From positions 1 to 57,215 of the forward strand of contig CALWSC010000039.1 in NCBI GenBank assembly GCA_944384105.1: a DNA stretch of 57,215 nt. Reading direction: 5' to 3'. A program made the position numbers and the translations under genes. Below are positions 47,825 to 51,963 of this stretch, in pieces. A model generated the notes under the pieces. It made no database searches and was not told where the DNA came from. It saw nothing but the letters and a program-made list of their open reading frames with translations. The DNA comes from an uncultured Lachnospiraceae bacterium (GTDB taxonomy: Bacteria > Bacillota > Clostridia > Lachnospirales > Lachnospiraceae). The first letter of the stretch is position 1. Each line of letters begins with the position of its first letter.

Positions 47825-47875
47825 GGCAGAAAAGCTGCCGTATCATTTTGAGTGAAATATGAACTCAAAGTATGA
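47825..47875 (+). promoter_or_regulatory. Two hairpins between regulator and hydratase genes
   Basis: GGCAG/CTGCC (47825-47829 and 47835-47839) and TTTGAGT/ACTCAAA (47847-47853 and 47863-47869, extendable by TCAT/ATGA) lie just before the hydratase start. No T-run follows. They may affect mRNA stability or translation. Confidence 0.35.
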
Positions 47876-47904
47876 TGGAAAGAGCAAAACAGGAGGATAA
47901 AATC

Positions 47905-50190
47905 ATGATCAAATTACTTGATGGAGGCGCTTGGCTGTTAAACGGCACGGAAGTAATTCCGGACGGGGCGGATGCCGCCGCGGCGATCAGCGCAAAGCTT
48001 GGCAACTGTCCCTCTAAGGAAGAGGCGTCGCAGAATACGATCGCCTATGGTATCCTGAAGGATCACAACACTTCCGGAAACATGACGAAGCTTCAGATTA
48101 AGTTCGATAAGCTGACCTCGCACGACATCACTTTTGTCGGCATCATTCAGACTGCGAGAGCGTCAGGACTTGAGAGATTCCCGATTCCGTATGTGCTGAC
48201 GAACTGTCACAACTCTCTGTGCGCAGTAGGCGGAACGATTAACGAGGATGACCACATGTTCGGACTGACGTGCGCGAAGAAATACGGCGGCGTTTATGTA
48301 CCGCCGCATCAGGCAGTTATCCATCAGTTTGCGCGCGAGATGCTCGCAGGCGGAGGAAAGATGATCCTGGGTTCCGACAGCCATACCCGCTACGGCGCTC
48401 TGGGAACCATGGCAGTCGGCGAGGGAGGACCGGAGCTTGTTAAGCAGCTTCTCTCCAAGACATATGACATCAACATGCCGGGCGTAGTGGGCGTATATAT
48501 GACAGGAAAGCCGGTTCCGGGCGTAGGACCTCAGGATGTGGCTCTCGCAATCATCGGCGCGGTTTTCGCAAACGGCTATGTAAAGAATAAAGTTATGGAG
48601 TTCGTAGGACCGGGCGTATCCAACTTGAGCGCAGACTTCCGTATCGGCGTCGATGTTATGACGACTGAGACGACATGTCTGTCATCTATTTGGAGAACTG
48701 ATGACACCATCAAAGAGTTTTATGAGATCCACAAGAGACCGGAGGATTACAAGGAGCTGAATCCGGGCGCTGTGACATATTATGACGGAATGATTCTTGT
48801 TGAGCTCGACAAGATCAAACCGATGATTGCGATGCCGTTCCATCCAAGCAACACCTACACGATTGAGGAGCTGAATGCAAACCTTATGGACATCCTCGAT
48901 GATGTGGAGAAGAAGGCGCTTGTCAGCCTGGACGGAAAGGTTCCGTTCACATTAAAAGACAAAGTGCACGACGGAAAGCTCTACGTGGAACAGGGAATCA
49001 TCGCCGGCTGCGCAGGCGGCGGATTTGAGAATATCTGTGATGCTGCGGATATTCTGAAAGGAAAGAGCATAGGTGCGGACGAATTTACACTGAGTATCTA
49101 TCCGGCAAGCACACCGATTTACATGGAGCTGGCAAAGAACGGCAGACTCGCAGACCTGCTCGCTACGGGAGCTATTGTAAAGACCGCATTCTGCGGACCG
49201 TGCTTCGGAGCAGGTGATACTCCGGCAAATAATGCTCTGAGCATCCGACACTCCACAAGAAACTTCCCGAACCGAGAGGGTTCCAAGATTCAGAATGGGC
49301 AGATCTCTTCTGTTGCTCTTATGGACGCGCGTTCTATCGCAGCGACAGCGGCAAATAAGGGATTCCTGACTCCGGCGACTGAGTTTGCGGGAGAGTACAG
49401 CCATCCGGTATACCATTTTGACAGTACGATCTATGAGAACCGCGTATTTGACAGCAAGGGCATTGCCGATCCGTCTGTGGAGATTAAGTTCGGTCCGAAC
49501 ATTAAGGACTGGCCTGAGATGCCGGAGCTGACAGAGAATCTGTTCCTGAAAGTCGTATCTGAGATCCACGATCCGGTGACAACGACTGACGAGCTGATTC
49601 CGTCCGGCGAGACATCCTCCTTCCGTTCCAATCCGCTTGGGCTTGCTGAGTTTACACTGTCCAGAAAGGATCCGGACTATGTAAAAGAGGCTAAGATCGT
49701 TCAGCAGGCGGAGAAGGTAAGAGAGACGGGCGACTGCCCGGTATGCGCAGTCATCCAGATGCGTCCGGCATGGATGAAGATTAAGGAGACGTATCCGGAT
49801 ATGAACCGCTATAATACAGGTATCGGAAGCACGATCTTTGCAGTGAAGCCGGGCGACGGCTCCGCGAGAGAGCAGGCCGCTTCCTGCCAGAAGGTACTCG
49901 GCGGCTGGGCAAATATTGCGAATGAATACGCAACAAAGCGCTACCGTTCCAATTTGATCAACTGGGGCATGCTGCCGTTCCTGATTCCGGAGGGAGAGCT
50001 CCCGTTCAAGAAGGGCGATTATCTGTTTATCCCAGGAATCCGCGATGCGATCAAGCAGAAAGCGACAGAGATCAAGGCGTATGTGGTGCGTGATACTCTG
50101 GAGGAGTTCACTTTGACGCTCGGAGATATGACTGACGATGAGAGAGAGATCATCCTCAAGGGATGCCTGATTAACTACTATAAAGGCTAA
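47905..50190 (+). CDS. Aconitase-family hydratase (YbhJ-like)
   Basis: This 761-residue protein has aconitase domains 1-3 and the swivelling domain 4 at the C-terminus. Cluster ligands are present: one Cys in A-G-C-A-G-G-G near 369 and two in F-C-G-P-C-F-G near 430-433. It also has G-S-D-S-H-T-R near 152-158. The usual aconitase G-S-C-T-N is replaced by G-C-A-G-G, and overall it looks like the YbhJ/hydratase branch. The substrate is therefore uncertain: citrate/isocitrate or another hydroxy-diacid. ATG 47905 follows AGGAGG. It is probably co-transcribed with the CdaR-like gene and ends at a strong terminator. Confidence 0.85.
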
Positions 50191-50240
50191 GAAAATTGCC
50201 GCCGGCAGCGATAAGGTTGCCGGCGGCAATTTTCTAAAAA
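50190..50240 (+). terminator. Terminator of the hydratase gene
   Basis: Bases 50190-50207 pair perfectly with 50218-50235 over 18 bp with a 10-nt loop. The TTTTCT tail is within the stem end. Confidence 0.8.
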
Positions 50241-50325: not shown

Positions 50326-50354
50326 TTGACAAATCGAAGTTTGTCTGGTATTAT
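50326..50354 (+). promoter_or_regulatory. Strong promoter of the large non-coding transcript
   Basis: A perfect TTGACA (50326-50331) and TATTAT (50349-50354) are separated by 17 bp, in an AT-rich stretch with A-tracts upstream that may act as an UP element. No gene with a credible start follows for more than 900 bp. Confidence 0.8.
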
Positions 50355-50514
50355 AAAACCATCAAAAGAAACAACACACAGACAACTGAAAAGCTTAATA
50401 AAAAACCGAAAAATCAAACCATTTTCTATGAAAGAGACGAGAAATCTTCATAAGAAGAATGGGAAAGGTTCTAAATATTAAGAACTTCAGAACAAGTGAA
50501 AAGGAGTGAGTCCA

Positions 50515-50562
50515 TTGGCAAAGGAACATCACAATAATCAATATGAGAGTGGTAAGATTTAA
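50515..50562 (+). CDS. Possible 15-residue micro-ORF inside the large RNA
   Basis: TTG 50515 has AAGGAG 8 nt upstream and opens a 15-codon frame (M-A-K-E-H-H-N-N-Q-Y-E-S-G-K-I). A second one, ATG 50543 to TGA 50593, overlaps it in another frame (16 codons, M-R-V-V-R-F-K-V-P-A-G...) but has no ribosome binding site. They may be chance, or part of a decayed gene or leader peptide. Confidence 0.25.
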   Translation: MAKEHHNNQYESGKI

Positions 50563-51150
50563 AGTACCTGCTGGAAAGACCTTCCCGAAATGACACAATA
50601 CGAATCCAGAGAAGAGAAAACTTCAGATAGAGATTCAAGCAGGAGGGTAAAGTAATTAAATCCTCATATTGAATAATTACCACAAAAAATAGTACAAAGG
50701 TTTTAAGATATGTGTAAAGAAACATAACTTAAAAGGATATAAATTCATATACTACTTGAAAGTTCACAGAAGAGGGAGAATATATAAAGAGGGAAATCGA
50801 TATATATTGTAGGTGTGAATTGAAAGAAACTATATTAATTTATATTTTGAGAGACAGATGAGGAAAGAGTCTGAATCGTAAACTTATACTATTCATGAAA
50901 ATATACTTATAACTTTTCGACATAGGCAACCGCTTATGAGCAGGGAATATAAAGAAGCGATAGTTCATATATAGTAACTATAAACAAACTAAAGATAATA
51001 GATCCAAGAAGAACTATTACCGAAGAAAGAATAAAGAGGAACAAAAGAATTGAATAACGAAGAATTTTAGAACAGCCGTTGTATCAAATATTAGAAGTTG
51101 GTATGGCGGCTGTTCAAATTCTGTGCATATCCTTAGCGGAGAATAATATA

Positions 51151-51199
51151 GAAGAGGTATCCCGAATAGATATTGAGTATCGGGATGCCTTCTTTTTTT
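51151..51199 (+). terminator. Terminator of the large non-coding transcript
   Basis: GAAGAGGTATCCCGA (51151-51165) pairs with TCGGGATGCCTTC (51180-51192), with wobble pairs and a small bulge, followed by seven T. Confidence 0.85.
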
Positions 51200-51222
51200 A
51201 AAAAACATTCATCAAGCCGGGA

Positions 51223-51251
51223 TTGCGCGGGGGCTTGGGGTAGGATATAAT
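51223..51251 (+). promoter_or_regulatory. Promoter of the pseudouridine synthase gene
   Basis: TTGCGC (51223-51228) and a perfect TATAAT (51246-51251) are separated by 17 bp. Confidence 0.6.
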
Positions 51252-51285: not shown

Positions 51286-51963
51286 ATGATGCTGAAAAAA
51301 GAATGGGTACTCTATGAAGATGGAGAGGTTCTGGTTCTGCATAAACCTGCAGGGATAGCGGTACAGAATGCGCGCTCGTCACAGACGGATCTCGAACACA
51401 TGGTACTGAATGAACTTGCGCAGCGGACAGGCGGCGGCAGAGATATACCGTATCTTGGGGTGATTCACCGCCTCGATCAGCCGGTAGAAGGAATTCTTGT
51501 ATTTGCGAAGACGCCTGCGGCGGCAGCGGAACTGAACCGGCAGCTTCAGTCTGGAAAGATGGATAAACGGTATCTGGCAGTGACGGAAGGGATTCCCGTT
51601 CCGGCAGAGGGGACGCTTGTGGATTATATAAAGAAAGAACCGCGGACAAATCTCTCACGCGTGACAGACCGGACTGACCGGGATGCAAAGCGCGCTGAGC
51701 TGTCCTACTGTGTAATAAATAGTGATCAGGGAGAAGCCCTGGTGGAGATTCATCTGAAGACCGGACGTCATCACCAGATCCGGGTACAGATGGCGCACCT
51801 GGGGACACCGCTTGCAGGAGACAGAAAATACGGTGCAGCGCATGAGGGTGTGCAGCTTAGCCTCTGTGCGTATAAGCTTCGGTTTGAGCATCCGCTGACA
51901 CATAAAAAAATGGAATTTTCTGTAACACCTTCCAATCCTCATTTCAAAAATCTGGCTGTATAG
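51286..51963 (+). CDS. RluA-family RNA pseudouridine synthase
   Basis: The 225-residue enzyme isomerises uridine in rRNA or tRNA. The catalytic aspartate is in H-R-L-D-Q-P-V-E-G near residue 63 (the family norm is H-R-L-D-x-x-T-S-G, so T-S is replaced by V-E). K-R-Y-L-A-V near 94 and the H-Q-I-R-V-Q motif near 163 are also present. It lacks the S4 domain of longer RluA/RluD proteins. ATG 51286 (or the adjacent 51289) follows AGAGAGGA. It lies just after the structured-RNA unit but has its own promoter. Confidence 0.92.
   Translation: MMLKKEWVLYEDGEVLVLHKPAGIAVQNARSSQTDLEHMVLNELAQRTGGGRDIPYLGVIHRLDQPVEGILVFAKTPAAAAELNRQLQSGKMDKRYLAVTEGIPVPAEGTLVDYIKKEPRTNLSRVTDRTDRDAKRAELSYCVINSDQGEALVEIHLKTGRHHQIRVQMAHLGTPLAGDRKYGAAHEGVQLSLCAYKLRFEHPLTHKKMEFSVTPSNPHFKNLAV

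Follow-up and report, generated by a model that had tools for sequence, protein, structure and literature searches.

A large structured RNA class of Lachnospiraceae with a core that may be gated by ribosomes on a short reading frame

Introduction

Bacteria have only a small number of known large structured RNA classes, several of which still lack an assigned function. tmRNA is a structured RNA with pseudoknots and a short internal open reading frame (ORF), and the dual-function regulatory RNAs RNAIII and SgrS are likewise structured and carry an embedded short ORF. In a recent account of ROOL and GOLLD (Nature 2025, PMC12286853), ROOL measures ~0.66 kb in the imaged member, adopts a complex fold with multiple pseudoknots, has no known function and belongs to phages and prophages, where it often lies close to tRNA islands, and many members of GOLLD exceed 800 nt and consist of a conserved and a variable part; cages are reported there for both RNAs, and ribosome binding of GOLLD in pull-downs is cited. 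OLE is a large RNA (~600 nt) of Gram-positive bacteria.

Here we analysed a stretch of 57,215 nt, hereafter the window, from an uncultured Lachnospiraceae bacterium (GenBank assembly GCA_944384105.1, contig CALWSC010000039.1), in which an original prediction had placed a structured RNA of about 840 nt, taken for GOLLD, ROOL or OLE, a divergent member of one of them or an undescribed class. Like ROOL, this RNA is large and has a complex fold with a putative pseudoknot, but it differs in lacking any Rfam or phage match and in carrying a conserved ribosome start site. It resembles GOLLD in size and in joining a conserved to a variable part; however, the conserved part is 3′ in GOLLD, whereas the core lies near the 5′ half here, and neither the phage and tRNA setting of GOLLD nor an Rfam match was found. 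With OLE it has in common that it is a large RNA of Gram-positive bacteria, yet it has no Rfam match and no constant neighbour. An embedded short ORF in a structured RNA recalls RNAIII and SgrS, but here the codons of the ORF make up one of the core strands, conservation of the peptide is slight and Rfam reveals no relation; pseudoknots and a short internal ORF recall tmRNA, whereas no tmRNA is called here. We regard the RNA as a new class, which stands, in style, with the large ornate RNAs.

Results

A predicted transcription unit between two protein genes

The RNA stretch (50326-51199) is flanked upstream by an aconitase-family gene (47872-50190) and downstream by one for a pseudouridine synthase (51286-51963); its GC content is ~0.30, compared with ~0.51 in these two genes. 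Its limits are given by the following features:

50326..50354, + strand: sigma-70-type promoter TTGACA-17-TATTAT (TTGACA 50326-50331, 17-nt spacer, TATTAT 50349-50354)
50362..51199, + strand: RNA of ~837 nt, supported by a fold z of -10, an 89% identical full-length homologue and alignment A9
51151..51199, + strand: intrinsic terminator, a hairpin (51151-51192) followed by seven Ts (51193-51199)
51223..51251, + strand: likely separate promoter TTGCGC-17-TATAAT of the downstream pseudouridine synthase gene, judged from its sequence

The promoter and the seven-T terminator are both where the original prediction had put them, and the transcript is predicted to start near 50362. Folding of 50355-51203 (849 nt) yielded -181.1 kcal/mol, whereas shuffles averaged -134.5 (z -10.05, with none of 20 shuffles equal), in agreement with the proposed structured RNA of ~840 nt; the stem described near its 3′ end is present, but 18 contiguous pairs were counted rather than 22. 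The accompanying statement that the stretch has no coding content does not hold, in that a 15-codon ORF with a Shine-Dalgarno sequence is present, its position and frame being conserved in relatives. Five longer ORFs overlap the stretch, and in Pfam all of them stayed below the curated cut-off (best E 0.026); a disrupted protein gene, named as a refuting condition, was not borne out. ARAGORN found no tRNA or tmRNA in the whole window, consistent with the predicted absence of a nearby tRNA, and the RNA stretch had no match in phage or plasmid collections. At 50200-50235, 3′ of the aconitase-family gene, a hairpin GCCGCCGGCA...TGCCGGCGGC followed by Ts separates that gene from the RNA promoter.

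The same organisation recurs in the homologues described below. A near-consensus promoter (score at least 10.5 of 12.5) precedes the RNA in 77 of the 84 homologues with enough upstream sequence, compared with 12 of 84 once-shuffled stretches, and promoter and terminator were both called in 51/84, delimiting RNAs with a median length of 720 nt (range 438-946).

Homologues in one bacterial family

A DNA search of 145 genomes, the window's own included, returned matches in 13. Among these, one from the same genus spans the full length at 89% identity, and other genera contributed pieces; some of the weakest matches are chance or the promoter region alone. The conserved pieces keep one order, CAATATGAG and GTGGTAA, then CTCATATTG, TTACCAC and a hairpin with GUGUAAAGAAAC, in which the first two are the 5′ strands (A and B) and the next two the 3′ strands (A′ and B′) of two core helices. 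A pattern scan of named genomes collected 117 stretches, of which 86 contain the full A-B...A′-B′ core and 31 lack it; the latter include stretches from Xenorhabdus, Prevotella and others, which are taken for chance, and some Lachnospiraceae records, which may be diverged members. Altogether the core is common to 91 distinct homologues, where the invariance of A, A′, B and B′ is partly by construction, as the collecting pattern fixes several of their letters. Named carriers include Blautia hansenii, Blautia parvula, Coprococcus comes, Dorea, Extibacter muris, Lactonifactor longoviformis, Robinsoniella, Ruminococcus torques and Sellimonas, and a few carrier records are labelled otherwise (uncultured Bacteroides, Thermoflexaceae, Eubacteriaceae). 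Three viral contigs matched the pattern, and the A-B...A′-B′ core was found in none of them.

Two covariance models, whose E-values are rough, were then applied to genomes. In Lachnospiraceae, the family to which the window belongs, 397 genomes were searched: R1, modelled on the A′-B′-hairpin part, matched 35 of them and R2, built from 56 members, matched 55, with a single match in 54 of the 55; the sole genome with two R2 matches holds two modelled cores 2.8 kb apart (G356:C24:101978-102080 and 104824-104925). Class-wide samples of 291 (R1) and 221 (R2) genomes, which include some unmatched genomes of the family and were searched with stricter filters, gave the window's own genome as the only match. 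In the genome samples searched, all matches fell within one bacterial family.

Some matches of the DNA search lack the core. L011 and L013 were dropped as members for this reason, and L009, L010 and L012 have the promoter/leader and the start module in common with the RNA, without the core. The last three are shorter, transcription-unit-like stretches (L009 ~1510-1830; L010, in genome G069, reverse complement ~1490-2090 and 2280 onward; L012, reverse complement ~1500-1740) with the leader TAT(A/T)ATnAAACCATCAAAAGA and a Shine-Dalgarno/start module; an ORF of few codons follows the start module in L010 and L009, two stretches stand in tandem in G069, and the leader pattern occurs in 5 of the 145 genomes, the window's own included. 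These stretches are possibly related RNAs with the same start module.

A covarying core with a putative pseudoknot

The core is formed by three helices, A, B and C, whose strands in the window are:

50539..50547, + strand: helix A, 5′ strand CAATATGAG, also ORF codons; pairs 7-9 vary with compensation
50549..50555, + strand: helix B (putative pseudoknot), 5′ strand GTGGTAA; seventh pair formed in 68/91 homologues, shuffle maximum 57
50556..50562, + strand: helix C, 5′ strand GATTTAA, which holds the ORF stop in this member
50656..50662, + strand: helix C, 3′ strand TTAAATC, from an alignment of 60 members
50663..50671, + strand: helix A, 3′ strand CTCATATTG, from covariation in 91 homologues and the 60-member alignment
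50677..50683, + strand: helix B, 3′ strand TTACCAC, from covariation in 91 homologues and the 60-member alignment

Covariation was checked on the homologues and covarying helices were found, as the original prediction would lead one to expect. Positions 1-8 of helix A are paired in 91/91 homologues; its pair 8 occurs as A-T (49), T-A (35), G-C (6) and T-G (1), thus paired in all 91 against a shuffle maximum of 59, and pair 9 is formed in 82/91 (shuffle maximum 52). Helix A is 99.3% paired in the alignment of 60 members, and helix C, stacked with it, has both-side changes in 7 of 8 pairs, yet 70.3% of its cells are paired; covariation supports both helices. The first six pairs of helix B are almost invariant, partly fixed by the search pattern, so that the case for this putative helix is made by one covarying pair, pair 7, together with partly built-in invariance. 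Scored jointly on the 60 members (less than 85% alike), helices A, B and C reached a covariation score of 0.241, compared with 0.094 in shuffles that ignore the relatedness of members (0/500 as high) and at most 0.098 when slid, while neither the count of double-changed pairs (181/500 shuffles as high) nor that of pair types (219/500) was above the shuffles. Given the order A-B-C...C′-A′-B′, helix B would cross A and C and so create a pseudoknot, if it forms. In L085 and L036, only 30 nt lie between B and A′, and the inner core domain can therefore be almost absent.

Outside the core, four further elements were delineated:

50428..50451, + strand: 5′ hairpin; the loop GACGAGAAA is conserved, and the stem pairs ATGAAAGA (50428-50435, including one bulged A) to TCTTCAT (50445-50451)
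50701..50734, + strand: hairpin after B′ with the near-invariant loop region GUGUAAAGAAAC; both-side changes in 11 of 12 pairs
50938..50947, + strand: GAGCAGGGAA element, exact in 10 of 82 loci with enough sequence, with variants in alignment A9
51050..51115, + strand: 3′ domain, comprising a TTGAATAA box (51050-51057) and an 18-bp helix (51070-51087 / 51098-51115)

ACGAGAAA is found upstream of the ORF in 46 of 84 homologues, compared with 1.5 expected from composition, and of the 276 cells of the 5′ hairpin stem 240 are paired, with shuffles averaging 139 and reaching at most 174. The hairpin after B′ has a covariation score of 0.520 versus 0.200 shuffled (0/500), with a count of double-changed pairs not above shuffles (152/500). 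In A9, an alignment of 14 full-length members, the TTGAATAA box is exact in 12 members, and the 3′ helix shows compensatory changes, for instance A-U in 9 and G-C in 5. The RNAalifold consensus of these 14 members contains helix A, the 3′ helix, the hairpin after B′ and one more hairpin; 23 of its 54 pairs show a double change, and helix C and the 5′ hairpin are absent from it.

A conserved start site in frame with the core

The 5′ strands of the core are preceded by a ribosome start site:

50502..50506, + strand: Shine-Dalgarno AGGAG, a 4-6 nt match in 89/89 members (6 nt in 67)
50515..50562, + strand: short ORF MAKEHHNNQYESGKI, TTG start at 50515, 15 codons, stop TAA 50560-50562

Among the 89 members with enough upstream sequence (2 of the 91 were left out), all have a start codon, ATG in 44, TTG in 38, GTG in 7 and CTG in 0, after a conserved CC-type context. 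In 84 members it lies 24, 27 or 30 nt before strand A, distances divisible by three, whereas the other 5 have it at 23 or 25 nt; ten start offsets were allowed, on which only 8 NTG triplets besides the 89 chosen occur. The ORF runs in frame through A and B in 76/89 and ends before A in 13/89, after 2-4 codons and 12-18 nt short of A, the 13 including all five out-of-frame members, and none reaches A out of frame. Passage of the ribosome through A is thus not universal, if these reading frames are translated as read here. Stops before A occur in the ORF frame in 13/89 members, whereas the two remaining frames have them in 34 and 35 and shuffles would predict 42; after thinning to members less than 75% alike, the counts (9/39 versus 13 and 10) are no longer distinct, so that stop avoidance is largely, or at least partly, a matter of common descent. 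The start codon, for its part, is kept in 39/39 members of the thinned set and the in-frame spacing in 35/39.

Differences between 97 near pairs fall on codon positions 1:2:3 in the ratio 112:96:126, a weak bias which suggests that the peptide is weakly constrained at most, and selection on the peptide was rejected on this ground. Its conserved QY..G residues are encoded on the helix A and B strands. Shine-Dalgarno, start and frame are thus conserved within a structured RNA, as read from sequence alone, and it looks as if translation initiation is conserved and the peptide hardly. The GGAG...TCC...NTG block could partly be a structural motif.

Two main subtypes and candidate long-range contacts

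The position of the ORF stop divides the 89 members into 33 that stop just after B (15-18 codons), among them the window RNA, 43 with a longer ORF (21-34 codons) and the 13 that stop before A. In members with enough sequence, the TTGAATAA box is present in 22/29 of the short-ORF type, 5/10 of the early-stop type and 5/41 of the long-ORF type, and CCTCC, mostly as CCTCCGAT or a near variant, in 38/41 long-ORF members (1.0 expected), 0/29 short-ORF members and 1/11 early-stop members. These distributions point to two main subtypes, one with an ORF of 15-18 codons and usually a TTGAATAA 3′ box, the other with an ORF of 21-34 codons and a CCTCC(GAT) box.

The CCTCC box is complementary to the core strand AATCGGAG, and we examined this contact in 37 of the 43 long-ORF members; in the remaining 6, one motif or the other is missing. 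Four pairs of the contact vary and are formed in 37, 37, 32 and 31 of 37 members, with shuffle maxima of 37, 37, 31 and 31, and there are a few double changes, such as TTTGGAG/CTCCAAA; given this weak covariation, the pairing is argued for mainly by complementarity. The data suggest that the CCTCC box pairs back into the core as a second long-range contact of long-ORF members. A long-range pairing of the Shine-Dalgarno sequence (columns 346-350 with 938-942) is weakly suggested by the modelled consensus fold of 14 members, and pairing of CCTCC with the Shine-Dalgarno site is possible in long-ORF members.

Comparison with known RNA classes

At gathering level, no Rfam 15 family matched anywhere in the window, and at E up to 5 the RNA stretch gave only two animal microRNA matches at chance level, so that GOLLD, ROOL and OLE, the candidates named in the original prediction, are without a match even at this threshold; its third option, an undescribed class, is the one borne out. 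Another 18 loci were compared with Rfam, and the sole match was a T-box in a flank of L090; the 16 homologues among these loci that have the core matched no family themselves. Membership in GOLLD, ROOL or OLE was rejected on these covariance-model scans. A setting of the ROOL type, in phages or prophages near tRNAs, was not found either (no tRNA in the window, no phage match), and tmRNA was rejected, as ARAGORN and Rfam find none in the window. Word searches of the literature returned no description of the RNA; the gut candidates of PMC8040213, 3161 in number, may include fragments of it. Because covarying structure is present in many genomes and no known family matches, we regard it as nearly certain, from these comparisons, that the RNA is a real class outside Rfam 15, found in Lachnospiraceae.

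Neighbouring genes

Flanking genes were taken from crude ORF calls of at least 90 codons, and the Pfam comparison covered 75 upstream proteins out of 81 and 74 downstream proteins out of 77. An upstream ORF was called at 83 loci, and at 20 of these it is an aconitase gene. A downstream ORF was called at 80 loci; it is the TPR/P-loop gene at 27 of them and encodes a pseudouridine synthase at 17. Of the 72 loci with both neighbours, 54 have the downstream ORF on the same strand and 18 on the opposite one. By eye, the TPR/P-loop product (L096:744-3638 and 26 other loci, 3′ of the RNA) is a large protein with N-terminal TPRs, an acidic middle and a C-terminal P-loop motif. Its gene is found in 356 of 394 family genomes (E 1e-30), compared with the RNA in 55 of 397; in the genome of the window it is located on a different contig. 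As the gene is far commoner than the RNA, the adjacency is read as synteny; a functional link between the RNA and this protein was rejected, since co-occurrence with a nearly universal gene is uninformative.

Discussion

Taking these observations together, we tentatively favour, at a little under an even chance, a free-standing large RNA that acts in trans and whose pseudoknot is opened or shut by the ribosome on the short ORF. A ribosome would initiate on the short ORF and, while it occupies strands A and B, the pseudoknot would be unable to form; once initiation fails or the ribosome departs, the core would fold. Ribosome loading and pseudoknot folding would then compete, coupling the active RNA shape to translation initiation, and the RNA might act in trans as a scaffold, sponge or regulator, with the peptide itself of little importance. 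Action in trans is inferred from a terminated RNA in differing gene neighbourhoods, and the trans role is a guess. Stated in full, as a new large RNA machine with a ribosome-gated core that senses translation initiation and comes in two main subtypes, the proposal is possible but leans towards doubt.

The main rival is a purely structural giant RNA, either a ROOL-like, RNA-only particle (a homo-oligomer or cage, as in ROOL and GOLLD) or an OLE-like RNA-protein scaffold, in which the ribosome site would be incidental or a tether. The size and the complex, probably pseudoknotted fold are in that style, the ORF of 2-4 codons in 13/89 members fits an incidental site, and PMC12286853 offers cages for ROOL and GOLLD and ribosome binding for GOLLD as precedents; however, no Rfam match connects the RNA to those families, and a start codon with Shine-Dalgarno in 89/89 members, in a frame kept whenever the ORF reaches A, is left unexplained, and we consider this reading rather unlikely. 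The same start site and frame, with the conserved QY..G, could instead mark an mRNA with a long structured 3′ region, whose product is the peptide of 15-34 residues. Yet QY..G sits on the helix A and B strands, where pairing holds the letters, the peptide varies outside it with a weak codon-position bias, and neither the 2-4 codons in 13/89 members nor the conserved downstream structure is accounted for, which makes an mRNA improbable.

A cis-acting leader or attenuator of the downstream gene would be in keeping with the same-strand ORF in 54/72 loci and with the recurrence of the TPR/P-loop (27/80) and pseudouridine synthase (17/80) genes, but a terminator marks the end of the RNA in the window, as it does at the 50 other loci where both signals were called, and in the loci inspected by eye the following gene is preceded by a promoter of its own. 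The downstream ORF, moreover, varies between loci and is on the opposite strand in 18/72, and the TPR/P-loop adjacency reads as synteny (356/394 versus 55/397). With no constant downstream gene in the same transcript, the leader was rejected and is very improbable. Divergence from GOLLD, ROOL, OLE or another known class draws on size and style only, against which stand the absence of any Rfam match for the window or the 16 core-bearing loci, a window without tRNA and the lack of a phage or plasmid match, so that such a membership is scarcely credible. Low GC and short ORFs are what a decayed protein gene or a chance AT-rich spacer would also show, but with no Pfam match above cut-off and compensatory changes across 91 homologues the chance of this is negligible.

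The RNA gave a single match in 54 of 55 genomes, and named strains are available for gut genera that carry it (Blautia, Coprococcus, Dorea, Ruminococcus torques), which should make it open to deletion and probing. If the ribosome-gated reading is true, a pseudoknot strand that doubles as a translated frame would be an unusual coupling of RNA shape to ribosomes.
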